From Plantibacter elymi (nom. nud.) (GTDB lineage: Bacteria; Actinomycetota; Actinomycetes; Actinomycetales; Microbacteriaceae): a stretch of 64,000 nt of DNA. The stretch covers positions 310,001 through 374,000 of the forward strand of contig NZ_FXWJ01000002.1 in assembly GCF_900177795.1 (NCBI RefSeq). The letters run 5' to 3'. Both the position numbers and the translations under genes were made by a program. Shown here piece by piece: positions 31,029 through 46,286 of the stretch (positions are counted from its first letter, which is position 1; each line of letters opens with the position of its first letter). The notes beneath the pieces are model-generated. The model was not told the DNA's origin, made no database searches, and saw only the letters and a program-made list of their open reading frames with translations.

Positions 31029-31409
31029 GTGGCCAGACGCAAGACACCGGAGCAGATCGCCGACGAGCAACGTCGCTACGAGCTTGCGCGATCGGCGAGC
31101 ACGTTCGAGGAGTTCTCCGTCCTGGCGGAGGACCCCAATCAGGCGATCCGCGCCGCTGCGGCGCACAACCCGGCAGCCGACCCAGCGGCGTTGGAGCTCT
31201 TCCTCAAGGATCGCTTCTGGGGTGCGCGCATCGAGATCGCGCTGCACCCGAACGCGACCGACGAGCTCCTGCTCCGTCTCCTCGAAGCCGATCCGCGCAA
31301 GCGCGGCGTCGTCCACCACGAGGCGGAACGCCGGCTGGCAGCGAAGGGCGTCCACTTCGACGACGACGGCCTCCCGCTGATCGGCGACGCCGGCACGAGC
31401 GCGCGTTGA
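31029..31409 (+). CDS. Small leucine-rich-variant/HEAT-like repeat protein
   Basis: A 126-residue helical protein with repeats of the form 'LAxDPxxxIRxAAAxNPxAxxxAL' (EDPNQAIRAAAAHNPAAD, then DRFWGARIEIALHPNATDELLLRLLEADP), as in leucine-rich-repeat-variant proteins found in actinobacteria. The function is unknown; such repeats usually bind proteins. It starts with GTG at 31029 after a GAAGGGA ribosome site. Its stop overlaps the TTG start of the AraC-type regulator, so the two are likely co-translated even though their link is unexplained. Confidence 0.65.
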   Translation: MARRKTPEQIADEQRRYELARSASTFEEFSVLAEDPNQAIRAAAAHNPAADPAALELFLKDRFWGARIEIALHPNATDELLLRLLEADPRKRGVVHHEAERRLAAKGVHFDDDGLPLIGDAGTSAR

Positions 31410-32248
31410 GCCCGTACAGCCAGGTCGACTGGGACGCGAGCCCCGAGCATCCGTCGTCCGTCGCCGAACCGTATCTGATGGGCACCGGCGTCGTCACCGA
31501 CGAGGACACCGGGAGCCGACCGCTCTCGCCACCGCACCGTCATCCGGACGCCATGCTCGCCTGGTGCTACCGCGGCACCGTGTGGGTGCATCTCCCGAAC
31601 GCGATGTGGCGCCTCGCACCGGGTCAGGGCGTCTGGATCCCAGCACACACGCCGCACACCGCGCACCACGAACGCGACTCCACCGGGTGCTACACCTACC
31701 TCCCCGCCACCTCGCTGATCGCGCCCGTGGAGACCGTCACCCAGGTCCTGGTCCCGCGTGCGGTGCAGGAGATGTTGCTCCACCTCGGGATCAACGACAT
31801 GCCGACCGACCTCCGGGTCCGTGCACAGGCGGTGCTCATCGAGATGCTGCAGCAGCCCGCCGCGGAGTCGGCGGACGGCTGGGGCGAGATCCCGATGCCG
31901 TCCGACGATCGTGTCCGTCCGCTCGTCCGTGCGATCCTCGCCGACCCGGGTGACCTCCGGGGCGCGCGCGAGCTGTTCGACGTGCACGGCCTCCACGAGC
32001 GCACCGTGCTACGGATCTTCCAGCACGACACCGGGATGAGTTTCGCCCGGTGGCGGACGGGCGTCCGGATGACGCTGGCGGCGCGGCTGATCATCGACGG
32101 CATGCCGATCGGGGCGGCCGCGCACCGGTGCGGGTACGCGTCCTCGAGCGCCTTCTCCGCGAGCTTCCGAGCCCGGTTCGGCATGACCCCTCGGGAGTAC
32201 GTGGCACGGGTGCAGGCGGACCCCGCCCACCAGCTCTACTGGCGCTGA
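31406..32248 (+). CDS. AraC-family regulator with N-terminal cupin
   Basis: A 280-residue regulator: cupin-like sensor at about 40-95 (PPHRHPDAMLAWCYRGTVWV, then WIPAHTPHTAHHE with several histidines) and a C-terminal AraC double HTH at about 190-275 (ERTVLRIFQHDTGMSFARWR, then GYASSSAFSASFRARFGMTP). The TTG start at 31406 is chosen from the TTGA overlap with the preceding gene. It lies directly upstream of the siderophore-uptake operon in the same direction, so it may control it or respond to siderophore or iron status (inference from position). DNA target unknown. Confidence 0.82.
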   Translation: MSPYSQVDWDASPEHPSSVAEPYLMGTGVVTDEDTGSRPLSPPHRHPDAMLAWCYRGTVWVHLPNAMWRLAPGQGVWIPAHTPHTAHHERDSTGCYTYLPATSLIAPVETVTQVLVPRAVQEMLLHLGINDMPTDLRVRAQAVLIEMLQQPAAESADGWGEIPMPSDDRVRPLVRAILADPGDLRGARELFDVHGLHERTVLRIFQHDTGMSFARWRTGVRMTLAARLIIDGMPIGAAAHRCGYASSSAFSASFRARFGMTPREYVARVQADPAHQLYWR

Positions 32249-32341: not shown

Positions 32342-32360
32342 TTAGGACATGCTTACCTAA
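32342..32360. promoter_or_regulatory. DtxR/IdeR-type iron box
   Basis: TTAGGACATGCTTACCTAA is a 19-bp interrupted palindrome matching the known DtxR/IdeR consensus (TTAGGTTAGGCTAACCTAA) at 15 of 19 positions, with both outer half-sites TTAGG and CCTAA intact. It lies 51 bp before the start of the siderophore-binding lipoprotein gene, just downstream of a -10-like TACGAT (32329-32334), where a bound iron-loaded repressor would block transcription. Confidence 0.85.
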
Positions 32361-32410: not shown

Positions 32411-33472
32411 ATGCCGCACGCTTTCGCGCGCCCGAACGTCCGCCGAGGATCCACCCTCCTCGCCGCCGTCATCGCCACCGCTCTCGCCCTCGCCGGATGT
32501 TCGGCCGCCACCGGCGACACCGGATCGACGACGGCATCGACCGACGGCGTCGTCATCGAACACGCCCACGGTGAGACCGTCATCCCGGAGAAGCCGGAAC
32601 GGATCGTGGCTCTCGGGTGGATGACGCCTGACATCGTCGCCGCCCTCGGCACCAACCCCGTCGGCATCGAAGAGGTCTGGGGTGCCGGTGAGAGCGGCTA
32701 CCAGCCCTGGTTCGAGGACTACGTCTCCGAGGCGTACGGCGAGATGCCCGAGATCATCCCCTTCACGGACGACGGCCCGAACTACGAGGCGATCAAGTCC
32801 CTGAAGCCCGACCTGATCCTGAGCCTCTACTCCGGTGTCACCGACATCGAATACGAGCGGCTCACCGAGATCGCCCCGACCGTCCCCTACATCGAGGGAC
32901 CCTGGAACCCGGGCACCTGGGAGGGCATGACCCGCACCGTCGGGAAGGCGATGTCGGAGGAGGCCAAGGCCGAGGAGCTCATCGGCGAGACCGAGGACCT
33001 CATCACCTCCCTCGCCGACGCACACCCCGAGTTCGACGACAAGAGCTTCGTCTGGGGCCTCACCCTGAACGAGGGCGGGACGGACCTCGGCGTCTACCTC
33101 GAGTACGACCCGCGGGTCCGCATCACCGAAGCGCTCGGCTTCACCTCGACCTCGGCGATGGACAGCTTCCTCGCGAGCGCCGAGGGCGACAACTGGTACA
33201 CCGGCGTCAGCCTCGAACAGCTCTACGACGTGGACGCCGACCTGTTCGCCGCATGGGGCGGAAGTGCCGAGGAAGGGACGTACACGGTCGAGAACGCCGT
33301 GGTGTCGCGCTGGTCGCCGATCGCCGCCGGGTCCTACGTGATCTACGCCGACGCCGCCAAGGCCTCGGCGATCAGCGCGCCGACCGTCCTGTCCCTGCAG
33401 TACGTCCTGCCCGGCTACGTCGACGACCTCGCAGCGGCACTGCAGGGCGAGCCGACCATCGACGGCAAGTGA
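32411..33472 (+). CDS. Iron-siderophore ABC transporter substrate-binding lipoprotein
   Basis: A 353-residue type III periplasmic-binding-like lipoprotein. The signal peptide ends in LALAGC (C30 lipidated), followed by a Ser/Thr/Gly linker. The FhuD/FecB fold opens with ETVIPEKPERIVALGWMTPD, the usual 'IPxxPxRVVxLG' start. It captures ferric siderophores and hands them to the FecCD-type permeases downstream. The ATG at 32411 follows AAAGGAGCCCC. The gene stands under the DtxR box and overlaps the next gene by a GTGA, making it the first gene of a seven-gene iron operon. Confidence 0.93.
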   Translation: MPHAFARPNVRRGSTLLAAVIATALALAGCSAATGDTGSTTASTDGVVIEHAHGETVIPEKPERIVALGWMTPDIVAALGTNPVGIEEVWGAGESGYQPWFEDYVSEAYGEMPEIIPFTDDGPNYEAIKSLKPDLILSLYSGVTDIEYERLTEIAPTVPYIEGPWNPGTWEGMTRTVGKAMSEEAKAEELIGETEDLITSLADAHPEFDDKSFVWGLTLNEGGTDLGVYLEYDPRVRITEALGFTSTSAMDSFLASAEGDNWYTGVSLEQLYDVDADLFAAWGGSAEEGTYTVENAVVSRWSPIAAGSYVIYADAAKASAISAPTVLSLQYVLPGYVDDLAAALQGEPTIDGK

Positions 33473-34578
33473 CGTCGGAGATCTCCCGGTCCGCCGCCCC
33501 GTCAGCAGCGCCTGCTGCGGGCGGGGCGGCGGACGTCCCGATGCCCGGTTGGGCCGGACGCGCAGACGTCTCGCCCCACCGCACCGGGACCCTCGCCGTC
33601 GGGCTCCTCGTCGCCACGGTGGTGCTGATCGCCGCAGCCGTCGCCTCACTCGCCATCGGCAATCGGGCCATCGATCCACTGACCGTCGTCCGCGCGCTCG
33701 TCGCCTACGACGACGCGAACCCCCTGCACCTCATGGTCATGGAGCTGCGCGTCCCACGGACGCTGCTCGGCATCCTGGTCGGTGCGGCGCTCGCCGTCTG
33801 CGGCGGGCTCATCCAGGCCTTCACCCGCAACCCGCTCGCCGACCCGGGCATCCTCGGGGTGAACGCCGGCGCGTCGTTCGCCGTGACCTTCGCGGTCGGT
33901 GTCCTGGGACTGACGACTCCCGGCACCTACGTCCCGTTCGCCCTGGCGGGTGCGTTCATCCTCACGGTGATCGTCTACACGCTCGGATCCGTCGGGGCCT
34001 CGGGCGCGACCCCGATGAAACTGACCCTCGCAGGGGTCGCCCTCGGTGCCGCCTGCACCGGTTTCACCACCGCGATCGTGCTGCGGGACGAAGGCACCCT
34101 CCAGGTCATGCGCTTCTGGAGCGTGGGATCCATCGGTGGACGCACCCTCGACCAGCTCACGTGGGCTGCTCCGCTGATCGTCGCGGGCCTCGTGATCGGT
34201 CTGCTCTGCGCCCGGTCGCTGAATGCCCTGACCCTGGGAGACGAGCTCGCCCAGGCGCTCGGTGCGCGAGTGCGCAGCACCCGGGTGTGGGTCGTCGTGG
34301 CCGTCACCCTCCTGGCCGGCACGGGCGTCGCAGCCGCCGGTCCCATCGCCTTCGTGGGACTCATGATCCCCCATGTCGTGCGGTGGTTCACAGGCCCCGA
34401 CCAACGCTGGGTGCTGACGTACTCGATGGTGATCGGCCCCGCGTTCCTGCTGCTCGCCGACGTCCTCGGCCGGATCGTGCTGCCGTCCGGAGAGCTCCGG
34501 GTGGGGATCGTCACGGCCCTCCTCGGCGCCCCCATCCTGATCATGCTGGTGCGTCGGAAGCGGGTGAGCGGACTGTGA
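33469..34578 (+). CDS. FecCD-family iron-siderophore permease, first subunit
   Basis: A 369-residue permease with about ten hydrophobic helices. RTLLGILVGAALAVCGGLIQ and AFTRNPLADPGILGVNAGAS are the family's 'RxPRxLxAxLVGAxLAxxGxxxQ..NPLAxPxxLGxxxGA' signature. The GTG at 33469 overlaps the binding-protein stop (GTGA), giving a 45-residue Ala-rich cytoplasmic N-terminus; an internal ATG (33541) would give a more usual 345 residues. It forms the heterodimeric channel with the next gene product. Confidence 0.92.
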   Translation: MTSEISRSAAPSAAPAAGGAADVPMPGWAGRADVSPHRTGTLAVGLLVATVVLIAAAVASLAIGNRAIDPLTVVRALVAYDDANPLHLMVMELRVPRTLLGILVGAALAVCGGLIQAFTRNPLADPGILGVNAGASFAVTFAVGVLGLTTPGTYVPFALAGAFILTVIVYTLGSVGASGATPMKLTLAGVALGAACTGFTTAIVLRDEGTLQVMRFWSVGSIGGRTLDQLTWAAPLIVAGLVIGLLCARSLNALTLGDELAQALGARVRSTRVWVVVAVTLLAGTGVAAAGPIAFVGLMIPHVVRWFTGPDQRWVLTYSMVIGPAFLLLADVLGRIVLPSGELRVGIVTALLGAPILIMLVRRKRVSGL

Positions 34579-35621
34579 GCGTCATCGACCACGGACGACG
34601 GCTGATCCGCGTGGAGACCGCGCACATCGCGACGCTCGTACCCGTGCGGTCCGTCCTCGTGTGCCTCGCTCTCATCGTGGTGATCATCGGAGCAGGGCTG
34701 TTCGCGACGACGATCGGAGCGTACGAGATCGGCTTCGACGCGGTGATCCGGGCGATCGTCGACCCCGCATCCGACCCGGACGTCCGCCAGGTCGTGACCG
34801 AGTGGCGACTGCCGAGGGTGCTGTTCGCGGTGCTCTGCGGAGCGGCGCTCGCGCTCGCCGGGGGCATCTTCCAGTCGCTCACCCGCAACCCGCTCGGCTC
34901 ACCGGACATCATCGGGTTCGGTGTCGGCGCGCAGTTCGGCGTCACGCTGACGATGCTCGTCCTCGGGCTCAACACCTACCTGTTCAAAGCCGCCGGGGCA
35001 CTCGTCGGCGGTCTGCTGACAGCCCTCCTGGTCGCCCTCCTCGCGAACCGCCACACCATGTCGTCGTTCCGGCTGATCATCGTCGGCATCGGTGTCTCGG
35101 CCGGGCTCGGTTCCCTCACCTCCTGGATCCTCATCTCCGTCAGCGTCGAGCAGGCGATGATGGCGGCCACGTGGGGGGCCGGATCCCTCGCCTCGCTCGG
35201 CTTCGACCAGCTGCTCCCCGCCGCAACGGCCTTCGTCGTGTTCGCCCTGCTGGCGCGGCCACTCCGACGCTCGCTCCCCGTGCTCGAGATGGGCGACGAC
35301 ACCGCCATGGCCCTCGGAGTGCGCCCTGGACGCACCCGGCTGATCGCCATGGTCGTCGGTGTGGCCCTCGTGGCGCTCGTCACCGCCGCGGCCGGCCCGA
35401 TCTCGTTCATCGCCTTGGCAGCCCCGCAGATCGCTCAACGGCTCACCCGCTCGAACACTCCGATGGGCCTCGCGCCGGTGATGCTCACCGGAGCCGCCCT
35501 GGTCGTCGTCTCCGACGCCGTCGCCCAGCTGCTCGCGGTCCCGGTCGGCGTGGTGACGCTCTCGGTCGGGGGCATCTATCTGACCTGCCTGCTGGCCGCC
35601 CAGTTCGTGCGCCGCACGTGA
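34575..35621 (+). CDS. FecCD-family iron-siderophore permease, second subunit
   Basis: A 348-residue permease, starting GTG with a GTGA overlap on the previous gene. RLPRVLFAVLCGAALALAGG and SLTRNPLGSPDIIGFGVGAQ are the family signature, close to FepG-type subunits. About ten helices. With the first subunit it forms the membrane channel of the ferric-siderophore type II importer. The last ten residues (AAQFVRRT) are followed by an 11-bp gap to the ATPase gene. Confidence 0.93.
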   Translation: MSVIDHGRRLIRVETAHIATLVPVRSVLVCLALIVVIIGAGLFATTIGAYEIGFDAVIRAIVDPASDPDVRQVVTEWRLPRVLFAVLCGAALALAGGIFQSLTRNPLGSPDIIGFGVGAQFGVTLTMLVLGLNTYLFKAAGALVGGLLTALLVALLANRHTMSSFRLIIVGIGVSAGLGSLTSWILISVSVEQAMMAATWGAGSLASLGFDQLLPAATAFVVFALLARPLRRSLPVLEMGDDTAMALGVRPGRTRLIAMVVGVALVALVTAAAGPISFIALAAPQIAQRLTRSNTPMGLAPVMLTGAALVVVSDAVAQLLAVPVGVVTLSVGGIYLTCLLAAQFVRRT

Positions 35622-35632
35622 AAGGAACCCCC

Positions 35633-36421
35633 ATGACCACGTCGCTCCTCGCCCGCGACCTCACCCTGGGCTACGGGGATGCTCCGATCGTCTCCGAGCT
35701 GTCGCTCGAGGTGCCGGACGACTCGTTCACGATCATCATCGGACCGAACGCCTGCGGCAAGTCGACCCTGCTCCGCGGACTCGCGCGGCTCCTGCGCCCG
35801 ACCGCCGGCGCGGTCCTCCTCGATGGTGCTGACATCCGCGCGTCGAAACCGAAGGACACCGCCCGCCGACTCGGGCTCCTCCCCCAATCCGCCATCGCCC
35901 CCGACGGGATCACCGTCGCCGACCTCGTCGGGCGCGGGCGGTTCCCGCACCAGAGCGCGATGCGGACGTGGAGCAGCGCCGACGAAGCGGCAGTCTCGGA
36001 GGCGATGGCCGCGACCGGGGTCACGGAGCTGTCCCGCCGGCTGGTCGACGAGCTCTCGGGCGGCCAGCGGCAACGCGTCTGGGTCGCGATGGCACTCGCC
36101 CAGCAGACCAAGCACCTGCTGCTCGACGAGCCGACGACCTTCCTCGACATCGCGCACCAGATCGAGCTGATGGAGCTGTTCACGGATCTGCACCGCAACG
36201 GCACCACCCTCGTCGCGGTCCTCCACGACCTCAACCACGCCGCCCGCTATGCGACCCATCTCGTCGCGATGCGCGACGGCGCGATCGTCGCTCAGGGCGA
36301 TCCGCAGGAGATCATCACCGCCGACCTCGTGGAGGCCGTGTACGACCTGCCGTGCCAGGTCATCACCGACCCCGTCTCCGGCACCCCGCTGGTGCTCCCG
36401 CTCGGACGGCGGACCCGATGA
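35633..36421 (+). CDS. Iron-siderophore ABC transporter ATP-binding protein, FecE/FepC type
   Basis: A 262-residue ATPase with intact motifs: Walker A GPNACGKST (37-45), Q-loop LLPQ, signature ELSGGQRQRV, Walker B LLLDEPTTFLD, and the H-loop histidine in VLHDLNHA. It energises the FecCD channel. GAAAGGAACCCCC precedes the ATG. Its stop overlaps the start of the first exporter-fold half-transporter (ATGA), which ties the classical importer and the second transporter into one transcript. Confidence 0.95.
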   Translation: MTTSLLARDLTLGYGDAPIVSELSLEVPDDSFTIIIGPNACGKSTLLRGLARLLRPTAGAVLLDGADIRASKPKDTARRLGLLPQSAIAPDGITVADLVGRGRFPHQSAMRTWSSADEAAVSEAMAATGVTELSRRLVDELSGGQRQRVWVAMALAQQTKHLLLDEPTTFLDIAHQIELMELFTDLHRNGTTLVAVLHDLNHAARYATHLVAMRDGAIVAQGDPQEIITADLVEAVYDLPCQVITDPVSGTPLVLPLGRRTR

Positions 36422-38070
36422 GCAAGACGACGACCAGCACGCCGCGGCGCCTCTTCGGCATCGCGCTGGGAGCGGACGGTCGCGGCGCCATGCTCGTCGC
36501 CGCGACCGGCCTCCTCATCGTGCACGCTCTGTCGGAGGCGGCGATCCCCGTGATCATCGGGGCGACCATCGACCGTGCGGTGGTGCCGTCCGATCCGGTC
36601 GCCCTCGGGATCTGGATCGGGGTCCTGGTCGGAACCTTCCTCGTCCTGACGGTGAGCTACCAGTCGGCGTCGCGCCTCATGGTGTCGATCTACGGGCACG
36701 GCGAACAGGCGCTCCGGCACCTCACGCTGTCCCGGATGCTTCGGCCGCAGCTCTCGCGACAGAACCTTTCGGCGGGTGAGGCGCTGACGGTCGTCACGTC
36801 CGACACCTACCGGGTGGCCGGGGTCGCCTGGTCGGTCGCGCAGCAGTCGGCGACCATCGCGGCCATCATCGGAGCCGCCCTGGCGATGTCGGTGATCTCG
36901 CCGGTGGCGACGATCGTGGTGTTCGTGTCGACCATCGGGATGATGCTCGTCATGCGCGTCGTCTCTCGACCACTGGAACGCCGAGGCTTCGCCGAGCAAC
37001 GGGCGGCGACCGAGGCCGGAGCGGTGGCCGCCGACTTCATGAGCGGGTTCCGGGTGCTCGTGGGCATCGGCGGGCGTGCTGAGGCCGTTCGCCGCTATGA
37101 CGCCGCCAGTGACGTCTCACGACGCGCAGCGACGGCCGCCGGGCGGTCCCTCGCCCTCTTCGACGCCGTGAGCGGCACGCTGGCGGCATTCGTCATGGCC
37201 GCACTCGTCGGCCTGTCCGCCTGGTTCGCCGCGGAGGGGCGGATCAGCATCGGCGAGCTCGTGACGGTGCTCGGCCTCGCGCAGTTCATCAGCGGATACC
37301 TCGCACAGGCGGGAACATTCCCGTCCAACTGGATCCACAAGCTCGCCTCCGCCAAGCGCTTGGCCGCGGTCGTCGACGCCGACGACCTGCTCGAAGCGCG
37401 CGGTCGGCCGGACGAGCCGTCCGACTCCGGCCCTGCGACCGACGTCGTGCTGTCCTTCCTCCTCGAACACCAGGACCGACCGGTGGACGTCCGTGCTGGT
37501 GAACTCCTCGGCATCCGGCCGCCAGACAGCGACACCGCGCGCGCCCTCTCCCGCCTGCTCGGCATGCGGACCCCCGCGGAGCGCGGCAGCGTCTCGCTCG
37601 CCGTCGACGGCAGGCTCGTCGACCAGGTGGACCTCGACCCGGTGGCGTACCGCCGTCGTGTGGTCGCGCCACCGCATGGCCAGCGCATCATGAGCGGCAC
37701 CCTGGCGGAGGCGGTCCGCGGTCATGACGTGACCGGCGACCCGGACGCGGTGTTCGTGGGCATGGCGGCGCTCGACGATGCGGTCGTGCAGCTCGGCGGC
37801 TGGTCGTCACCGGTCGGTGAGGCGGGTAGGCGGCTCTCCGGCGGGCAGCGCCAGCGCATCGGCATCGCCCGGGCGCTCCATGCCGGTGCGGACGTGCTCG
37901 TCCTCGACGAACCGACGTCGGCCGTCGACGTCCTCACGGAGACCCGCATCGCCCGAGCACTCGCGGCGCACGACGGCACCGTCGTCGTCATCACCACCTC
38001 GCCTGTCCTGTTGAACGCTTGCGACAGAGTCGTCGAGCTCACTCCCGGTTCGGAGACCCGCCATGACTGA
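36418..38070 (+). CDS. Exporter-fold ABC half-transporter with degenerate P-loop (IrtAB-like, subunit 1)
   Basis: A 550-residue TMD-NBD half-transporter: six helices in about 20-300, NBD about 345-550. The NBD keeps the signature LSGGQ (473-477) and Walker B VLVLDE (493-498), but Walker A is lost (GIRPPDSDT at 365-373 where GxxGxGKST belongs), the Q-loop glutamine is lost (VVAPPHG) and the H-loop histidine is replaced (VVVITTSP). It therefore cannot bind ATP normally and must pair with the next gene product, whose losses are complementary. Position in an iron operon next to a siderophore-interacting protein suggests an IrtAB-type siderophore transporter; export of another compound is possible. 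It starts with an ATGA overlap. Confidence 0.85.
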   Translation: MSKTTTSTPRRLFGIALGADGRGAMLVAATGLLIVHALSEAAIPVIIGATIDRAVVPSDPVALGIWIGVLVGTFLVLTVSYQSASRLMVSIYGHGEQALRHLTLSRMLRPQLSRQNLSAGEALTVVTSDTYRVAGVAWSVAQQSATIAAIIGAALAMSVISPVATIVVFVSTIGMMLVMRVVSRPLERRGFAEQRAATEAGAVAADFMSGFRVLVGIGGRAEAVRRYDAASDVSRRAATAAGRSLALFDAVSGTLAAFVMAALVGLSAWFAAEGRISIGELVTVLGLAQFISGYLAQAGTFPSNWIHKLASAKRLAAVVDADDLLEARGRPDEPSDSGPATDVVLSFLLEHQDRPVDVRAGELLGIRPPDSDTARALSRLLGMRTPAERGSVSLAVDGRLVDQVDLDPVAYRRRVVAPPHGQRIMSGTLAEAVRGHDVTGDPDAVFVGMAALDDAVVQLGGWSSPVGEAGRRLSGGQRQRIGIARALHAGADVLVLDEPTSAVDVLTETRIARALAAHDGTVVVITTSPVLLNACDRVVELTPGSETRHD

Positions 38071-39877
38071 TCCCGCCATGGAGCCCACCACCGCCGAGAT
38101 GCTCCCCGTCGCCGACGGCTCCCGCGTCCGAACCGTCGTCGGTGCCCTCCTCCGACGACACCGCGGACGGACCGCCGCCGTGGTGGTCCTCTTCCTCGCA
38201 GCCGCCGCACTGGGTGTCGTGATGCCCGCGTGTCTCGGGCGGATCGTCGACGCCGTCGCTTCCGATACCGGGCTGAGCGTCGTCTCAGGCTGGGTGGCCG
38301 CAGCCGCCGTCGGCGCTGTCGGGGCCGTCGCGGTGACGCTGTGGGCGACTCGGGTGCTCACGGGGCTGGTGCAGGACCTGCTCGCCGAACTGCGCGAGGA
38401 CGTGTTCGCCTCGGCCATGCGGCTCCCGGTGAGCACCGTCGACGACGGCGAGCGTGCCGATCTCCTGTCCCGGGTCACCGGCGACGTCGATGCGGTCGCG
38501 GAGGCGGGCGGGAACGTCGCCCCGACACTCCTCTCCGCCGGGTTCGCGATCGGAGTGTCGGCCGTCGCCCTGGCAGCCGTCGACCCGTGGCTCGCGCTCG
38601 CCGGTCTCGCCTCGGTGCCGTGCTACGTCCTCGGGACCCGGGCGTTCCTCCGGCGATCCCGAGTGGTGTTCCGAACGGTCCGGATCCGCGAGGCATCGCG
38701 CAGTCAGGCCGTGCTGGACGCGGTCGACGGCGCGGAGACCCTCGCCGCGTTCGTGGGCACGGACCACGCGCTCGAACGTGTCCGGGAACGCGCGGCCGCC
38801 TCCATCGACGCGCAGATCGAGGGCGTGCGGGTCGCGAACCGCTTGTTCCGATGGATCAACTCGGGTGAGCTCGTCGGGCTGTCGGCGATCCTGGCGACCG
38901 GCTTCCTCCTCAACCTGCAGGGCACGATCACCGTCGGGCTCGTGACCACCGCCGCGCTCCTGTTCCACCGGCTGTTCGATCCGGTCGGCCGGCTCATCTT
39001 CGGGCTCGACGACATCCAGCGGGCCACGGTCGGGCTGGCTCGGCTCGTCGGGGTCATCGACCTCGCGGCGGCTTCGTCGTCCACAATGACGGATTCACGC
39101 TCGCCCGTCGGCGGTGCCGCAGACGGTGTCGCCGCACCGCCCGGGATCCGAGTGCGTGACCTGACATTCCGGTACCGGACCACGGACCGCGGGATCACGC
39201 AGGTCACCCTGGACGTGCCGCCCGGAACGACCACGGCGCTCGTCGGCACGTCCGGCTCGGGCAAGAGCACCCTGGCGCGGGTCGTCGCCGGACACCATCC
39301 CCCGACGTCGGGGCGTGTGCTCGTCGACGACACCCCGTACTACCTGTCGCAGGAGCTCCACCACTTCCGCGGCTCGATCGCCGACAACCTCAGGCTCGGG
39401 GCTCCGGACGCCAGCCGGGACGAGATGGTCTCGGCGCTCCGTGCCGTCGGAGCCGAGTGGGCGGTCACCGCGTTGCAGGACGACCCGGCGGCGGACCCGA
39501 CCGACTCGAGGGAGTCGCCCGTGCCGCTGGACGAGGGACGCATCCAGCAACTCGCGGTCGCTCGGGCGTTCCTGGCGGACCCGGCGATCGTGATCCTCGA
39601 TGAGGCGACGGCCGACGTCGGCTTGCACCATCGCGACGCCGTCGAAGCGGCGATCGCCGTCCTCCGGACGGACCGGACCGCGCTGCTGATCGCGCACCGG
39701 TTGGAGCAGGCCGCCACCGCCGACCGGATCGCGGTCTTCGCGGACGGTCGGATCGTCCAGCACGGCACGCACGCGGAACTCCTCGCCTCCCCCGGCCCCT
39801 ACCGCGAGTCCTGGCTCGCGCACAGGCCGCACCCGACCCAGCACACCGAACCGACCCGAGAGGCCGAGACGCCATGA
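38063..39877 (+). CDS. Exporter-fold ABC half-transporter with degenerate signature motif (IrtAB-like, subunit 2)
   Basis: A 604-residue TMD-NBD half-transporter: helices in about 28-315, NBD about 362-604. Walker A is intact (GTSGSGKST, 395-403), as are Q430 of the Q-loop, Walker B VILDE (510-514) and H545 of the H-loop. The ABC signature is degenerate: PLDEGRIQQL (488-497) replaces LSGGQ, and the D-loop reads ADVG. Pairing with the previous protein leaves exactly one complete ATP site. The gene overlaps the preceding one by 8 bp and the siderophore-interacting protein by ATGA. The function is inferred from context as siderophore import across the membrane, as in mycobacterial IrtAB. Confidence 0.86.
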   Translation: MTDPAMEPTTAEMLPVADGSRVRTVVGALLRRHRGRTAAVVVLFLAAAALGVVMPACLGRIVDAVASDTGLSVVSGWVAAAAVGAVGAVAVTLWATRVLTGLVQDLLAELREDVFASAMRLPVSTVDDGERADLLSRVTGDVDAVAEAGGNVAPTLLSAGFAIGVSAVALAAVDPWLALAGLASVPCYVLGTRAFLRRSRVVFRTVRIREASRSQAVLDAVDGAETLAAFVGTDHALERVRERAAASIDAQIEGVRVANRLFRWINSGELVGLSAILATGFLLNLQGTITVGLVTTAALLFHRLFDPVGRLIFGLDDIQRATVGLARLVGVIDLAAASSSTMTDSRSPVGGAADGVAAPPGIRVRDLTFRYRTTDRGITQVTLDVPPGTTTALVGTSGSGKSTLARVVAGHHPPTSGRVLVDDTPYYLSQELHHFRGSIADNLRLGAPDASRDEMVSALRAVGAEWAVTALQDDPAADPTDSRESPVPLDEGRIQQLAVARAFLADPAIVILDEATADVGLHHRDAVEAAIAVLRTDRTALLIAHRLEQAATADRIAVFADGRIVQHGTHAELLASPGPYRESWLAHRPHPTQHTEPTREAETP

Positions 39878-40764
39878 AGATCCACCGCGGCATCGTGACC
39901 GCAGCGACACCCCTGAGTCCGAACCTGATCCGCATCACCCTCGGCGGTCCGGGCGTCGAGGACTTCGTCAGCACCGGCACGGGCGATGAGTACGTCCGCG
40001 TCTTCTTCCCCCACGGTGCCGACCCGACGGAGGTCTCGCTCCCGGTACCGGCAGGCGACTGGTGGGAGACGCCGGAGGGCTCCCCGCAGGCACCGATGCG
40101 GACCTACACGATCAGCGCCGTGCGGCAGGACCCCCTCGAGATCGACATCGACTTCGTCGTGCACGAGGCCGGGGTCGCGGGGCCGTGGGCGGCTCGCGCC
40201 CAGCCCGGGCACGTGCTCGGCCTGAACTCGCCCACCGGCCTGTACGCGCCGCCCGCCGACATCGGTTGGCAGGTCCTCGTCGCTGACCTCACCGGTCTTC
40301 CCGCAGTCAAGCGCATCGTCGAACAGACACCGCCCGGACTGCGGACCCGCGTGGTGCTCGAGGTACCGAGCGAGCGGGATCGGATCGTCATCGAGACGAA
40401 CGACGATGTGACGGTGACCTGGGTGGTGGGCGGCAACGGACACGGCCCGAGTGCGCTGGGCCGGCTCGTCCGGAGTGTGGTGGACGAGCGCCTCCCGCTC
40501 GATCAGGGCTACATCTGGGTGGCGGGTGAGACGGTGGCCCTCCGCGACGTGCGCAAGTACCTGCGCAAGGAGCTCGGGCTACCCGCCACCCGGTTCAAGG
40601 TCGTCGGGTACTGGACGCCGATCGCCGCGTGGGACGAGAAGTTCGCCGCCCTCCCGGCGTCCGTCCAACAGGAGCTCGACGCGATCTGGAGCACCGAGGA
40701 GGACGCCGAGCCGGAGGACGTGCAGATCCGGTTCGAGGAGCAGCTCGACCGCCTCGGCCTCTGA
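39874..40764 (+). CDS. Siderophore-interacting flavoprotein (ferric-siderophore reductase)
   Basis: A 296-residue SIP-family protein. The FAD-binding domain comes first (RTYTISAVR is the flavin 'RxYTxR/S' motif; PAQPGHVLGLNSPTGLY) and the SIP C-terminal NAD(P)H domain follows (VTWVVGGNGHGPSALGRLV; YIWVAGETVALRDVRKYLRKE is highly diagnostic). It reduces Fe3+ bound to a siderophore in the cytoplasm, releasing Fe2+. In mycobacteria this domain is fused to IrtA; here it stands alone as the last gene of the operon, overlapping subunit 2 by ATGA. A hairpin follows the stop. Confidence 0.93.
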   Translation: MKIHRGIVTAATPLSPNLIRITLGGPGVEDFVSTGTGDEYVRVFFPHGADPTEVSLPVPAGDWWETPEGSPQAPMRTYTISAVRQDPLEIDIDFVVHEAGVAGPWAARAQPGHVLGLNSPTGLYAPPADIGWQVLVADLTGLPAVKRIVEQTPPGLRTRVVLEVPSERDRIVIETNDDVTVTWVVGGNGHGPSALGRLVRSVVDERLPLDQGYIWVAGETVALRDVRKYLRKELGLPATRFKVVGYWTPIAAWDEKFAALPASVQQELDAIWSTEEDAEPEDVQIRFEEQLDRLGL

Positions 40765-40812: not shown

Positions 40813-41838
40813 TCAGCCGCGCGGTGGTTCGACGGACGAGCGCGACACCACCGGCATCGGGACGAGCACCGGCTCGCCCGATGCGCCCTCGAGCAGGAGT
40901 TTGACCGCACGACGGCCCATCTCCTCGTGGGGCAGCGCGATGGTCGAGAGCTCCGGGCGCAGATAGGAGGCGACCTCGTCGTTGTCGAACCCGACGACGG
41001 AGACGTCTCCGGGCACGGACAGACCGAGTTCGGCCAACGCTTGATAAGCACCGAAGGCGAGACGATCGTTGAGGCAGAGCAGGGCCCGGACGTCGTCCCG
41101 CCGAGCGAAGAGTTCGTGCACCGCGCGATAGCCGTGCTCGGGCTCCCAGACCGGGATGGACTCCTCCGCCACGAAGGTCAGGCCGCGCTCCCGCATCGCC
41201 CCGCGGATACCGGCCACCCGGGCCTCCACCGTCGCGGAACGGAAGCGGTCCCGCTCCACTTCGTCGTTCTGCCCGATGAGCGCGATGCCCGCTGAGTGAC
41301 CGTGGTCGAGGAGCAGTTCGATCGCTGCGCGTCCGCCGGCGAACTCATCCGGGAGGACGGAGACGGGATGATGCGAATTCGTCGCATTCAGCATGACGAC
41401 CGAGGTCGAGGTCGGAAGCTCGGGAACGAAGAACTCGCGCGATCGCATGGTCGCGAAGATGATGCCGTCGACCTGTCGATCGAGGACCGCGCCGATCGCC
41501 TCGGCCTCCCGTCTGGGATCACCGCCGGTCTCGAGGAGGAGGATGACGTGGCGAGCCTCCTCGGCGGCCTCGAGAGCGCCCTTGATCAGTCCACCGGCGT
41601 ACCGTGTGGTGGCGATCTCGTCGGAGATGAACCCGATCGTGCGGGTCTTGTCCGTCCGGAGTCCGCGGGCGGCCACGTTCGGCCGGTAGTTGAGCGCCTC
41701 GGCGGCGGCGAAGACACGATCATGGGACTCCTTCGACAGCCCGGTCTCCGGACGACCGTTGAGGATCATCGAGGCCGCGGTGATCGACAGCCCCGCCTCT
41801 CGCGCGACATCCGCCAGCGTCACCCTGTTTCGAGCCAT
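40813..41838 (-). CDS. LacI-family transcriptional regulator (GH32-like sugar locus)
   Basis: A 341-residue LacI/GalR regulator. The HTH is TLADVAREAGLSITAASMIL, the hinge lies in ALNYRPNVAARGLRTDKTRT, and the ligand domain has VPGDVSVVGFDNDEVASYLR. GAGGGGAG precedes the ATG at 41838. It is divergent from the binding-protein gene of a second sugar importer across 227 bp that hold a good operator candidate, so it probably represses that operon and itself. The inducer is likely the sugar released by the GH32-like enzyme (inference). Confidence 0.9.
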   Translation of the reverse strand: MARNRVTLADVAREAGLSITAASMILNGRPETGLSKESHDRVFAAAEALNYRPNVAARGLRTDKTRTIGFISDEIATTRYAGGLIKGALEAAEEARHVILLLETGGDPRREAEAIGAVLDRQVDGIIFATMRSREFFVPELPTSTSVVMLNATNSHHPVSVLPDEFAGGRAAIELLLDHGHSAGIALIGQNDEVERDRFRSATVEARVAGIRGAMRERGLTFVAEESIPVWEPEHGYRAVHELFARRDDVRALLCLNDRLAFGAYQALAELGLSVPGDVSVVGFDNDEVASYLRPELSTIALPHEEMGRRAVKLLLEGASGEPVLVPMPVVSRSSVEPPRG

Positions 41839-41923
41839 CGCTACTCCCCTCGGTTCCGGTCTCCGACCCGTCCATCAGATCACACTTGACAAACCTCGGG
41901 CCTCCGCAGAACATTACTGCTAT

Positions 41924-41937
41924 CTAAAACCTTTTAG
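41924..41937. promoter_or_regulatory. Candidate LacI operator (CTAAAA-CC-TTTTAG)
   Basis: CTAAAACCTTTTAG is an inverted repeat with 6-bp half-sites around a CC centre, the general form of LacI-family operators. It overlaps an extended -10-like TGCTATCTA (41918-41926) and is the most AT-rich spot of the divergent region. It lies 128 bp before the binding-protein start and 85 bp before the LacI start, so one site could control both. Confidence 0.6.
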
Positions 41938-42065
41938 TGACGAACTACATGGATTTAGGTAGGCCGGTCCGGTTACCCGCTCGTCCCCCTCAGGCGCGCG
42001 GCCGAGGCGGTTCGACGCGCTCGGCGCACGTCACAGCACTGCACCTTCGACAAAGGAGTCTCCTC

Positions 42066-43421
42066 ATGTTCACCCGTCCCTCCCGTCGGGGAGTCGTCCG
42101 CTCAGCGGTCGCCCTCACCTCGCTCGCCGCGGCCTCCGCGCTCGCCCTCACCGGCTGCGCTCCGGGCGGCTCGGCGCCCGCAGCCTCGTCATCGGTCGAC
42201 GTCAGCACCACGCTGACCAAGGACAAGGTCGAGCTCACCATCGCCGACGAGACCGGCTTCCCGGTCACCGAGAAGCTGGCCGACGAGTTCACGAAGCAAC
42301 ACCCGAACATCACCTTCAAGATCAACCGCGACACCTTCGCGAACCTCACGGCGAACGCGCCGAAACTCCTCGCGAGCGACACCCCGCCCGACCTCATCAG
42401 GCTCCCGACCATCGGCGACACGGTGAAGGACGGCCTGCTCGCCAATCTCGACCCGTACTCCGAGGCCTACGGCTGGGACGCCTGGTCAGAGTCGCAACTC
42501 GCGCCGCTGCGGGTCGACGCCGACGGCATCCGCGGCAAGGGATCGCTGTACCAGCTCGGCCTCGGCTACAGCGTGACGGGCATCTACATGAACCTGAAGC
42601 TGGCCAAGCAACTCGGAATCGACGCGCCGCCGGCGACGCTCGGCGAACTCGAGGACGACTTCGCCACCGCGAAGGCGGCCGGGGTCCTGCCGATCATGGC
42701 GGGAGACAAGGACGGCGTCGTCAACTTCGTCATCCAGGCGGCCATGAACCAGTACGGCGACAAGGCCGAGATGTCGGACTGGATCTTCAACAAGCCCGGT
42801 GCCACGTACGACACGAAGGGCAACGTCCAAGGCGCTGAGCTCATCCGGAGCTGGGCCGACGCGGGATACTTCCCGAGCGACATCAACGCGATCGACTACG
42901 CGTCGTTCGTGAGTCGGTTCCAAGGCGGCGAGGGACTCTTCACCTTCAACGGCAACTGGGCCGCAGCGGACACGCAGGCGAAGATGGGTGACGACGTCGA
43001 CTTCTTCCTCGTCCCGCCGGTGAAGGCGGGCGGCGATCACGTGGCCATGGGTGCCGCCAACTCCTTCTCGGTGGCGGCGAAGTCCAAGCACCTCAACGAG
43101 ATCGTGTACTTCCTCAACTGGATCCACACGGACGAGGCAGCCCGCCAGATCGTCGTGGACGTCACCGGAGCCGCTCCTGGAGGCGACCCCAGCCAGGCGC
43201 TGCCCACCGTGCCGGCCGGTTCCCTCCTCGAGGACGCCCTGAAGATGTCCGCGCAGATCGGCGCCGAGAACGGTCAGGTCGACTTCATGTCGAACGCGAC
43301 CGCCGGTATCTACGCGGGCGCCATCATCCCCGAGTCCCAGCTGCTCGTCACGAGCAAGATCACCGGCCAGGACTTCGTGGACGCCGTCCAGGACTTCTAC
43401 ACCAAGGAACTGGCCGGCTGA
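42066..43421 (+). CDS. Sugar ABC transporter substrate-binding lipoprotein (GH32-like locus)
   Basis: A 451-residue family-1 solute-binding lipoprotein. The signal peptide ends in LALTGC (C31 lipidated), followed by the linker APGGSAPAASSS and the two-lobe fold (KLADEFTKQHPNITFKINRD is the typical first lobe). AAAGGAG precedes the ATG. It binds the sugar imported by the two permeases that follow; from the GH32-like enzyme a fructose-containing oligosaccharide is plausible but unproven. Confidence 0.92.
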   Translation: MFTRPSRRGVVRSAVALTSLAAASALALTGCAPGGSAPAASSSVDVSTTLTKDKVELTIADETGFPVTEKLADEFTKQHPNITFKINRDTFANLTANAPKLLASDTPPDLIRLPTIGDTVKDGLLANLDPYSEAYGWDAWSESQLAPLRVDADGIRGKGSLYQLGLGYSVTGIYMNLKLAKQLGIDAPPATLGELEDDFATAKAAGVLPIMAGDKDGVVNFVIQAAMNQYGDKAEMSDWIFNKPGATYDTKGNVQGAELIRSWADAGYFPSDINAIDYASFVSRFQGGEGLFTFNGNWAAADTQAKMGDDVDFFLVPPVKAGGDHVAMGAANSFSVAAKSKHLNEIVYFLNWIHTDEAARQIVVDVTGAAPGGDPSQALPTVPAGSLLEDALKMSAQIGAENGQVDFMSNATAGIYAGAIIPESQLLVTSKITGQDFVDAVQDFYTKELAG

Positions 43422-43426
43422 GCACC

Positions 43427-43498
43427 ATGACCCGCAATCGACCGATCCTCTGCGTGCGGCTCACGCACGCCGACCTCCGACGTGGGCTGCCGGCATGA
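43427..43498 (+). CDS. Possible 23-residue leader peptide before the permease genes
   Basis: An ATG four bases after the binding-protein stop opens a 23-codon frame (MTRNRPILCVRLTHADLRRG plus LPA) whose TGA overlaps the permease ATG as ATGA. This would carry ribosomes across the 73-bp gap and the small hairpin inside it. There is no obvious ribosome site of its own, and I recognise no homologue. It may be chance. Confidence 0.3.
   Translation: MTRNRPILCVRLTHADLRRGLPA
43451..43467. other. Small intercistronic hairpin between binding-protein and permease genes
   Basis: TGCGTG (43451-43456) pairs with CACGCA (43462-43467) around a 5-nt loop, 28 bp before the permease start. Its position parallels the stronger hairpin of the glycan importer and could set the binding-protein to permease ratio. 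Confidence 0.4.
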
Positions 43499-44409
43499 CC
43501 GGCACGATTGCACCCCGTCGGGCCCGCGGACGCACCGCGGCCCGGCGGGCGGTCCTCATCGGGTGGCTCTTCACCATCCCCGCCCTACTCGCCTACATCG
43601 GGTTCGTCGTCTATCCGCTGTTGACGGGCGTGCAGTACTCCTTCTACCGATGGAACGGCGTCGGTCCGTCCGAATGGGTCGGGTTCGCGAACTACCTGCG
43701 GGTGTTCACCGACCCCGACCTGCTCGGGTCCATCGGCAACGCGTTCATCCTCATCGTCTTCTTCACCGCGATCCCGGTGTCCGCTGGGCTCGTTCTCGCC
43801 AACCTGATGCGGTCCATGCGTCCCGGCCCGTTCTCCACGGTGTCACAGACGATCCTCTTCCTCCCGCAGATCATCCCGCTCGCGGCAGCCGGTATCGCCT
43901 GGTCCTGGATGTACGCGCAGACGGGCGCCGTGAACCAGATCCTCGGCGCCGTCGGACTCGGCGGTCTGGCGCGTCCGTGGCTCGGTGACTTCCAGACGGC
44001 GCTGCCCGCGGTCGGACTCATCGGCTCGTGGGTGCTCACGGGCCTCTGCACCGTCCTGTTCCTCACCGGTATCGGCAAGATCGACTCGTCCCTGTACGAG
44101 GCGATCCGCTTGGACGGCGCCGGCTGGCTGCGCGAGTTCACCACCATCACCGTGCCGGGACTGCGTCAGGAGATCTCCGTGCTCGTGACGATCACGGTCA
44201 TCGCCGCACTCAGCAGCTTCGACATCATCTACACCACCACCCTCGGAGGCCCCGGCCGTTCGACCCTCGTGCCCGGCATCTCCATCTACCGCATCGGGTT
44301 CACCCAGAGCGACGTCGGCCTCGCCTCGGCGTTCGGCATCGTCCTCATGGTGCTCGTCCTCGCCTGCGTCCTCCCCCTGCAGCGTCTGGCGAAAGTGAGC
44401 GATCGATGA
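43495..44409 (+). CDS. Sugar ABC transporter permease, MalF type (GH32-like locus)
   Basis: A 304-residue permease, six predicted helices, the first at about 18-42 (GWLFTIPALLAYIGFVVYPL). The EAA loop is YEAIRLDGAGWLREFTTITV. It forms the CUT1 channel with the next gene product, which it overlaps by ATGA. No ATPase is encoded nearby. Confidence 0.92.
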   Translation: MTGTIAPRRARGRTAARRAVLIGWLFTIPALLAYIGFVVYPLLTGVQYSFYRWNGVGPSEWVGFANYLRVFTDPDLLGSIGNAFILIVFFTAIPVSAGLVLANLMRSMRPGPFSTVSQTILFLPQIIPLAAAGIAWSWMYAQTGAVNQILGAVGLGGLARPWLGDFQTALPAVGLIGSWVLTGLCTVLFLTGIGKIDSSLYEAIRLDGAGWLREFTTITVPGLRQEISVLVTITVIAALSSFDIIYTTTLGGPGRSTLVPGISIYRIGFTQSDVGLASAFGIVLMVLVLACVLPLQRLAKVSDR

Positions 44410-45230
44410 TCACCTCGAAGACCGAAGTCATCCTCGGCCGTGCCATCCTGGTCGTCGTCCTCGTCCTCACCGTCCTGCCCCTCCTCAACATGATCTCGGC
44501 GGCCCTGCAGCCTGCAGAGGTGAACCCGACGGGGCTGACCTGGCCCACCGACCCGCAGTGGGGCAACTTCGTCCTCGCGTTCGAGACCGGCCACGTGTGG
44601 CAGCTGATGGGCTCCAGCGCACTGATCGTCCTCGGCGTCGTACCGGTGAGTCTGCTGTTCGCGACACTGGCAGGGTACGCGCTCGGCAACCTGCGGATTC
44701 GAGGTGGAGGCTTCGTGTTCGTCTTCCTCATCGTCGGACTCACGATCCCGTTCGAGTCGCTCATCATCCCGCTGTACTACGAGATCCAATCGCTCGGACT
44801 GCTGAACACGCAGTGGGCGATCATCCTGCCGCTCATCGGCCTGTTCATGCCGTTCAGCGTGGTCTGGATGCGAGCACACTTCGTGCGGATCCCTTCCGAG
44901 CTCTCGGAAGCGGCTCGGGTCGACGGTGCGACGACCTGGCAGGAATTCGTGCGCATTCAACTGCCGCTCGCCCGCCCGGCGCTGTCGGCACTCGCCATCC
45001 TCCTGTTCCTGTGGACCTGGAACCAGTTCCTCCTGCCGGTGGTGCTCGTGTCCGACCCGCTCAACCGGACGGTCGCCGGCGCTCTCACGTTCTTCCAGGG
45101 GCAGTACAGCAACAGCATCCCGCTGCTGAACGCGGGCGCGCTACTCATCGTCGTCCCGACGATCCTCGTGTTCGTCGTCTTCCAGCGCCAGTTCATCACC
45201 GCGTTGCTGCAGGGCGCCGTCAAGGGCTGA
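44406..45230 (+). CDS. Carbohydrate ABC transporter permease, MalG type (GH32-like locus)
   Basis: A 274-residue permease; helices start at about 10-32. The EAA loop SEAARVDGATTWQEFVRIQL and the C-terminal QRQFITALLQGAVKG are typical of MalG-class CUT1 subunits. It starts with an ATGA overlap on the MalF-type gene. A 63-bp gap follows before the GH32-like gene. Confidence 0.93.
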   Translation: MITSKTEVILGRAILVVVLVLTVLPLLNMISAALQPAEVNPTGLTWPTDPQWGNFVLAFETGHVWQLMGSSALIVLGVVPVSLLFATLAGYALGNLRIRGGGFVFVFLIVGLTIPFESLIIPLYYEIQSLGLLNTQWAIILPLIGLFMPFSVVWMRAHFVRIPSELSEAARVDGATTWQEFVRIQLPLARPALSALAILLFLWTWNQFLLPVVLVSDPLNRTVAGALTFFQGQYSNSIPLLNAGALLIVVPTILVFVVFQRQFITALLQGAVKG

Positions 45231-45293
45231 CCCCATGACGGCTCCGCACCAGCGCCCTGAATCAACCCACTCCTTCCACGATCGGCTCCGTAC

Positions 45294-46286
45294 ATGACCT
45301 TCGAAATCGACGACCACTGGGTGTGGGACTTCTGGTTCGCCGACGACGGCGACACCTTCCACCTCTTCTACCTGCACGCGCCGAAATCGCTCGGCGACCC
45401 CCAGCGACGGCACCGCAACGCCCGGATCGGACACGCGACCTCGGAGGACCTGCGGACGTGGACCGATCTCGGGCCGGTCCTGTCGCCGGGCGAGCCGTCC
45501 GCCTTCGATGGGACGGCCACCTGGACCGGCAGCGTCGTGCTGGGGCCGAACGACCGCTGGTACCTCTTCTACACGGGCTCGCGGTTCCTCGACGCGGAGA
45601 GCCACGCGAACATCGAGACGGTGGGCGTCGCGACGTCGAGCGACCTGCACACCTGGTCGAAGCAGGACGGCCCCGTCCTGGCTGCCGACGGCCCGTGGTA
45701 CGAACGACTCGGTGACGGCAGCTGGCCGGAGGAGGCGTGGCGCGACCCGTGGGTGTTCGCCGATCCGGCCGGTGACGGCTGGCACATGCTCGTGACCGCC
45801 CGGGCGAATCGCGGTCCGGACTCGGACCGCGGCGTCGTCGGACACGCGGTCTCCCATGACCTCAGCTCGTGGCGTCCCGCTCCCCCGTTGAGTGAGCCCG
45901 GTGCCGGGTTCGAGCATTTGGAAGTCCTGCAACCGATCGAGACGGCGGAGGGCTGGTCCGTGCTGTTCTCCTGCGACACGTCGATGCTCGCCGGCTCGCG
46001 CAAGGTGTCCGGAGAGACGGGAGGGGTGTGGATCGCTCCCGCGGCGGGCCCTGCGGGACCGTTCTTCCCCGAGGACGCGAGGCTCATCTTCGACGAACGG
46101 CTCTACAGCGGGCGCATCATCACGGACCGATCAGGTAGGCAGGTGCTGCTCGCGTTCGTCAACCAGGACGACGACGGTCGGTTCGTCGGGACGATCAGCG
46201 ACCCGCTGCCGGTCGAGGATCTCCTCCCACCACGACCGGAACCCCCGAAGCCTCGACGTGCGACCATGGACGAGGTGGGCTCATGA
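45294..46286 (+). CDS. GH32/GH68-like five-bladed beta-propeller glycosidase
   Basis: A 330-residue clan GH-J-type protein. The three catalytic carboxylates can be matched: D12 in HWVWDFWFADDG (the family's WMNDPNG), D151 in WRDPWVF (the RDP motif) and E210 in FEHLEVLQ (the EC motif position). It lacks the C-terminal beta-sandwich found in full GH32 invertases and inulinases, so it is a propeller-only form. It probably hydrolyses beta-fructosides or a related furanoside imported by the adjacent transporter. There is no signal peptide. Its stop overlaps the beta-lactamase-like gene (ATGA). GH43 is the main alternative. Confidence 0.75.
   Translation: MTFEIDDHWVWDFWFADDGDTFHLFYLHAPKSLGDPQRRHRNARIGHATSEDLRTWTDLGPVLSPGEPSAFDGTATWTGSVVLGPNDRWYLFYTGSRFLDAESHANIETVGVATSSDLHTWSKQDGPVLAADGPWYERLGDGSWPEEAWRDPWVFADPAGDGWHMLVTARANRGPDSDRGVVGHAVSHDLSSWRPAPPLSEPGAGFEHLEVLQPIETAEGWSVLFSCDTSMLAGSRKVSGETGGVWIAPAAGPAGPFFPEDARLIFDERLYSGRIITDRSGRQVLLAFVNQDDDGRFVGTISDPLPVEDLLPPRPEPPKPRRATMDEVGS

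Follow-up and report, generated by a model that had tools for sequence, protein, structure and literature searches.

Organization of the Operon

The 64-kb stretch of the Plantibacter elymi genome analyzed here (the window; ~70% GC, in a genome of 4.12 Mb) carries on its forward strand an apparent iron-uptake operon, and our subject is the pair of exporter-fold ATP-binding cassette (ABC) half-transporters that lies within it. From 32411 to 40764 the genes are tightly packed, overlapping or almost touching. The run opens with a siderophore-binding lipoprotein (32411..33472), recognized by its Pfam Peripla_BP_2 domain and by a lipobox read from the sequence (LAGC), and proceeds through two FecCD permeases, FecC (33469..34578) and FecD (34575..35621), for each of which the GTG start was chosen from a GTGA overlap, to a FepC-like ATPase of a binding-protein-dependent importer (35633..36421) whose own motifs are intact. 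There follow the two half-transporters, subunit 1 (36418..38070, 550 aa) and subunit 2 (38063..39877, 604 aa), both combining PF00664 with PF00005, and then a siderophore-interacting flavoprotein, or siderophore-interacting protein (SIP; 39874..40764), in which PF08021 and PF04954 score 108.1 and 104.6 bits, both well over cut-off. As the original prediction, made from the sequence alone, had proposed, the pair shares one packed operon with a complete importer, and the SIP stands alone as a separate gene that overlaps that of subunit 2 by 4 bp. The same gene order is found again at three loci of the same genus (L051-L053) and at L065 and L074.

One Predicted ATP Site of the Pair Is Dismantled

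The coordinates and motifs first given for the pair proved correct when re-read from the sequence. In subunit 1 the stretch GIRPPDSDT stands where the Walker A motif is expected, the Q-loop column is occupied by His and not Gln (VVAPPHGQRI), and the H-loop region, VVVITTSP, has no His; the LSGGQ signature and LVLDEPTSAVD, with the Asp-Glu of Walker B, are retained. Subunit 2 retains GTSGSGKST, YYLSQELHHF, ILDEATADVG, and LLIAHRLEQ, and carries LDEGR in place of the LSGGQ signature. The two chains would form a heterodimer and, because subunit 1 has lost the Walker A, Q-loop, and H-loop residues and subunit 2 the signature, one composite site would be dead and the other complete. Judged from the sequence, then, the pair combines one consensus site with one degenerate site, the latter having no phosphate-binding loop. 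Whether the losses might instead be divided between different sites was examined, and they share one in 111/111 homologous pairs, that of the window included, which bears out the original assignment of all losses to a single composite site.

Conservation across the Family

The homologous pairs were drawn from genomes of the class together with a few named contigs, membership being set by profile score and not by motif, and their motifs were read off alignments. Because the profiles derive from members of the degenerate kind, intact members may be under-sampled. The 111 paired loci, of which L077 is the window itself, comprise 110 distinct ones (L088 and L264 are identical), and six further loci at which a single half met the length and score limits (L250, L265, L270, L286, L288, and L289) were excluded from the count. 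Across the 111 pairs, subunit 1 never has a Walker A motif or an H-loop His and has the Q-loop Gln once; GxxGxGK[ST] is absent throughout, and the stretch that replaces it contains an acidic residue in 107 pairs and a lysine in 5. The Walker B Asp-Glu of subunit 1 is kept in 17/111, the window and its near relatives included, and the LSGGQ-type signature in 110/111, the exception being L072 (RSGGE). Subunit 2 has Walker A, Gln, His, and Asp-Glu in every pair and the signature in none. Given its geometry, the D-loop obeys the same site-wise rule as the other losses: it ends in Asp in all 111 copies of subunit 1, but in subunit 2 the last residue is Gly in 75 pairs, Asp in 35, and Glu in a single one. 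The split of the losses between the chains is far above chance and is a trait of the family.

As a control, 110 full-length exporter-type open reading frames (ORFs) were assembled from the matches listed at the named-genome loci and from two further pairs encoded in this genome. Only the five subunit-1 homologues among them lack the Walker A lysine; it is retained in the other 105 ORFs, of which 5 have a single altered glycine. The scan of the named genomes used generic ABC patterns, and five family members (L096-L099 and L101) were recognized among the 80 loci listed. The long two-domain ORF of L112 has both Walker A motifs. In the open-license literature searched, we recognized no account of an ABC pair that is linked to siderophores and lacks one of its Walker A motifs.

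Losses on this scale might mark subunit 1 as a decaying pseudo-subunit, in a pair that is inactive or on its way out, and the variability of the replaced Walker A stretch among the homologues would fit such decay. Against it stand the conservation of the signature (110/111) and of the D-loop Asp (111/111), reading frames that stay open in the subunit 1 homologues listed from across the class, and subunit trees that, compared by eye, mirror one another in broad outline; we regard decay as very improbable.

Relation to IrtAB and to Coelichelin-type Loci

Two trees of 88 rows each were built, holding 34 and 18 family pairs, respectively, with Shimodaira-Hasegawa-like approximate likelihood ratio (SH-aLRT) support. 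In both, each subunit of the family occupies one side of a well-supported branch (subunit 1, 100 and 100; subunit 2, 100 and 99), and the window pair groups with actinobacterial sequences, for example those of Kibdelosporangium. In the first tree subunits 1 and 2 each adjoin one half of an asymmetric exporter of the ordinary kind encoded in this genome (support 91 each), an adjacency that the wider tree kept for subunit 1 (92) and lost for subunit 2.

The original prediction had suggested that the pair is an unfused IrtAB-type transporter. For comparison, five SIP-ABC fusion genes from relatives, recognized by the fusion, were taken with their partners as IrtA/IrtB, and an unfused intact IrtAB-like pair was represented by L218, L223, and L233 in the first tree and by L218 alone in the second. 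IrtA/IrtB and the unfused intact pair form a group of their own (support 99 and 96) apart from the window family. In alignment, Walker A, the signature, the Walker B Asp-Glu, and the H-loop His are present in 10/10 IrtA and IrtB chains, unlike the window pair, and the motifs are likewise kept in 6/6 chains of the unfused intact pairs. The tree grouping thus indicates that true unfused IrtAB-like pairs exist and that the window pair is not among them. The SIP of the window finds its nearest PDB match in 4yhb (E 1.1e-29), the match to IrtA being far weaker (E 3.5e-12). On tree position, ATP sites, and SIP similarity, we reject the identity with an unfused IrtAB.

At L218, L223, and L233, which are siderophore clusters, the degenerate pair and the intact unfused IrtAB-like pair occur together, with FecCD genes adjoining. 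These loci offer a natural setting in which to separate the roles of the degenerate and the intact pair.

A different set of relatives comes from four genomes (L286 with L265, L287 with L288, L289, and L290), in which the genes run FecC, FecD, FepC, binding protein, subunit 2, a large nonribosomal peptide synthetase (NRPS), and subunit 1. The NRPS frame is ~3,650 aa where whole (L289 and L290) and is clipped by the ends of the stretches in the other two. This order agrees with cchCDEF-G-H-I of the coelichelin locus, whose NRPS we take to be SCO0492, and it is by gene order alone that the flanking pair is equated with CchGI. The pair of L290, the only one of the four placed in the trees, shares both subunit clades with the window and has the same motif losses; the larger clade that holds both has a support of 99, with 25 rows per subunit (first tree). 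Excerpts of PMC12161575 describe CchCDEF as an importer and CchGI (SCO0491 and SCO0493) as "presumed to export coelichelin." At the level of sequence, the window pair groups with this coelichelin-type pair, a presumed siderophore exporter, and not with IrtAB.

Genomic Neighborhoods across the Clade

The neighbors of the pair were read at 60 clade loci, fetched from at least 91 matches at 426 bits and over, in flanks of up to ~9 kb, some of which are clipped by contig ends. Among the matches listed the next score is 376 bits, and 20 loci from below this gap (L266-L285) served as a low-score comparison set. FecCD genes occur at 24 clade loci, a binding protein at 20, and a SIP at 9, with any of these at 31, and an NRPS adenylation-domain motif is flagged at 19, the motif being one that we take to mark such domains; condensation domains were found independently within L208 and L212. 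The low-score group has FecCD, binding-protein, or SIP neighbors at 0/20 loci, a FepC-like ATPase at 2/20, and the adenylation-domain motif at 1/20, so that iron neighbors divide 31/60 against 0/20 (Fisher p 9e-6). That the nearest homologues might be drug exporters from non-iron loci had been raised with the original prediction; 31 of the 60 clade loci are iron loci. We reject the drug exporter of a non-iron locus as a candidate for the window pair, since iron neighbors are frequent in its clade and absent from the low-score group.

The low-score loci have the same dismantled site and are spread across the class. Since none of the 20 has iron neighbors, the asymmetric machine itself is not siderophore-specific.

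Siderophore Biosynthesis and Regulation

The search of this genome with PF00668 (NRPS condensation) and PF04183 (IucA/IucC) gave no match, other routes not having been searched, and neither domain was found in six same-genus genomes. Because of this, it is unlikely that the pair here exports a siderophore made by its own host, and the pair is retained without either main siderophore pathway. Among 30 chosen genomes that bear the pair, 16, including all 7 of the genus, lack both pathways, and 14 have at least one. The present genome contains five SIP-domain genes, of which at least two others adjoin FecCD genes (L298 and L300), though neither of the sought pathways was found.

The operon may be regulated by iron, judging from a likely DtxR/IdeR/DmdR-like iron box on the forward strand, TTAGGACATGCTTACCTAA (32342..32360), which lies ~50 bp 5' of the start of the binding protein. 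The window was scanned for one orientation of the near-palindrome, allowing up to 5 mismatches, with a degenerate consensus that we take to represent DtxR/IdeR/DmdR boxes; the box has 3 mismatches, no other position in the 64 kb came within the limit of 5, and five shuffled windows gave no box with 3 or fewer. A search of the window with a single fixed consensus, allowing at most 3 mismatches, gave no match, and for this reason we class the box as a moderate match. The identical 19 bases recur 5' of the binding protein at L051-L053 of the same genus, and boxes with 2 mismatches stand 5' of the binding protein at L065 and L074.

Upstream lies a gene for an AraC-family regulator (31406..32248, forward strand) with the Pfam domains HTH_18 and AraC_binding, the latter a cupin; it is a possible regulator whose membership of the operon is putative, and it may sense the siderophore. 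Homologues at E 1e-10 or better were found at 14 further loci of 122 searched, mainly near relatives of the window; among the 60 clade loci only 2 have one. The regulator is also found near the pair at L054 and L071, where the flank showed no FecCD gene. Downstream, the operon run is terminated by a LacI-type gene on the opposite strand (40813-41838). It belongs to a next block (40813-47464) that resembles one for sugar use, with the LacI regulator, an SBP_bac_1 protein, a permease, a GH32-type glycosidase, and a PF00144 beta-lactamase-fold protein.

The exporter fold (PF00664), the persistence of the AraC-cupin regulator near the pair in close relatives even where no FecCD gene was seen, and the low-score group, with the same asymmetric design and no iron neighbors, would all suit a different kind of efflux, in which the pair removes sideromycins or other harmful chelators taken in by way of FecCD, or some metabolite to which the AraC regulator responds. 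The iron box and the conserved operon order argue instead for a core role in iron, and we consider such efflux decidedly unlikely.

A Possible Role in Siderophore Return

We tentatively favor, as the best single explanation although at a little under an even chance, a cycle in which xenosiderophores are used and returned, the pair expelling the emptied siderophore through a heterodimer with one ATP site. The lipoprotein, the FecCD permeases, and the FepC-like ATPase would import the ferric siderophore, the SIP would reduce the iron and so release it, and the asymmetric exporter-fold pair would return the emptied siderophore outward. At the working site the signature would come from subunit 1 and the remaining motifs (Walker A, Q, B, and H) from subunit 2, with hydrolysis at this site alone. 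The dismantled site should bind no ATP, because its phosphate-binding loop and signature are lost, and would act only as a fixed hinge. Expulsion is favored because the pair shares a clade with a presumed exporter, because the operon already contains a full importer, and because ordinary asymmetric pumps are exporters. The operon provides a candidate for the step that follows the reductase, the fate of the emptied siderophore, including in users of foreign siderophores; to our knowledge, this step is seldom assigned in Gram-positive bacteria.

Several observations weigh against this cycle. Export even by CchGI is given as a presumption only in the excerpts of PMC12161575, and the window (in a 7-row subclade) and L290 sit on separate branches within their clade. 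Neither iron-uptake labels nor the NRPS adenylation-domain motif were found at 20/60 clade loci, so a link to siderophores does not hold throughout the clade, and the null result for biosynthesis in this genome covers two pathways. At 7/60 clade loci a binding protein, a SIP, or both lie beside the pair with no FecCD gene in the flank (2.8 to 9 kb), an arrangement that would suit a pair acting itself as the importer.

Import is the chief competing account. Like IrtAB and YbtPQ, the pair would take in ferric siderophore and deliver it to the SIP, so that a single transcript would encode two ways in, as the original prediction held. Besides the seven loci without FecCD, the position of the SIP as the next gene, overlapping by 4 bp, speaks for it, and exporter-fold siderophore importers are known (PMC10246721, in excerpt). 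However, the pair lies outside the IrtAB clade, whose members keep both ATP sites, a complete importer is already present in the operon, and the SIP of the window is unlike the corresponding domain of IrtA. The "two routes for iron" are also left unproven because the named relatives of the pair, CchGI, are presumed exporters (PMC12161575, in excerpt). We judge import somewhat unlikely, if a serious competitor to the return cycle.

The return cycle could be one instance of something broader. Possibly, though we hold it with more doubt than the cycle itself, the pair represents a widespread actinobacterial family that spends a single ATP per cycle: with one site deprived of its phosphate loop, of the Q- and H-loop residues, mostly of the Walker B Asp (which the window keeps), of the partner's signature, and often of the partner's D-loop Asp, no second "glue" ATP would be bound, and in iron operons, including those of bacteria that make no siderophore, such pairs would form the return limb of a cycle of binding, import, reduction, and expulsion.

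Comparison with Known Systems

With IrtAB the window pair has in common the exporter-fold half-transporters, encoded side by side in the window, and a siderophore-interacting flavoprotein nearby. It differs in that the SIP is fused to IrtA there and is a separate gene here, and in that both ATP sites are intact in 5/5 orthologous pairs whereas one is dismantled in the window. In the structure of IrtAB ATP is bound at both sites, and its authors contrast IrtAB with the degenerate-site transporter TM287/288 (both from excerpts of PMC10246721).

The resemblance to CchG/CchI of Streptomyces is that of an exporter-fold pair in a locus with FecCD permeases, a FepC-like ATPase, and a binding protein. 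In Streptomyces the genes of the pair lie on either side of an NRPS, and the pair would export a siderophore made by the host, as presumed in the excerpted text of PMC12161575. In the window, by contrast, the two genes are adjacent and followed by a SIP, and the genome has no NRPS condensation domain.

Two TM287/288-like pairs of this genome (L296 and L297) resemble the window pair in having one consensus and one degenerate site, but they keep a Walker A motif in both chains and depart from the consensus by Asp for Glu and by SAG-type signatures. A parallel in the distribution of changes is Pdr5, where every change is confined to one composite site. One half of Pdr5 has Cys for the Walker A Lys, Asn for the Walker B Glu, and Tyr for the H-loop His, and the other half has LNVEQ in the signature position (PMC7756269, in excerpt); the degenerate site is still occupied by ATP in structures (PMC8421411, in excerpt). 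In degenerate-site ABC transporters, non-hydrolyzed ATP in the weak site is thought to join the nucleotide domains (PMC7756269, in excerpt). Pdr5 is, however, a fused ABCG-type fungal drug pump with point changes, whereas in the window pair, which has the bacterial exporter fold, the glycine-lysine loop is wholly replaced and subunit 1 keeps the Walker B Asp-Glu. A family whose weak site has no phosphate-binding loop would allow a direct test of the need for a second ATP.

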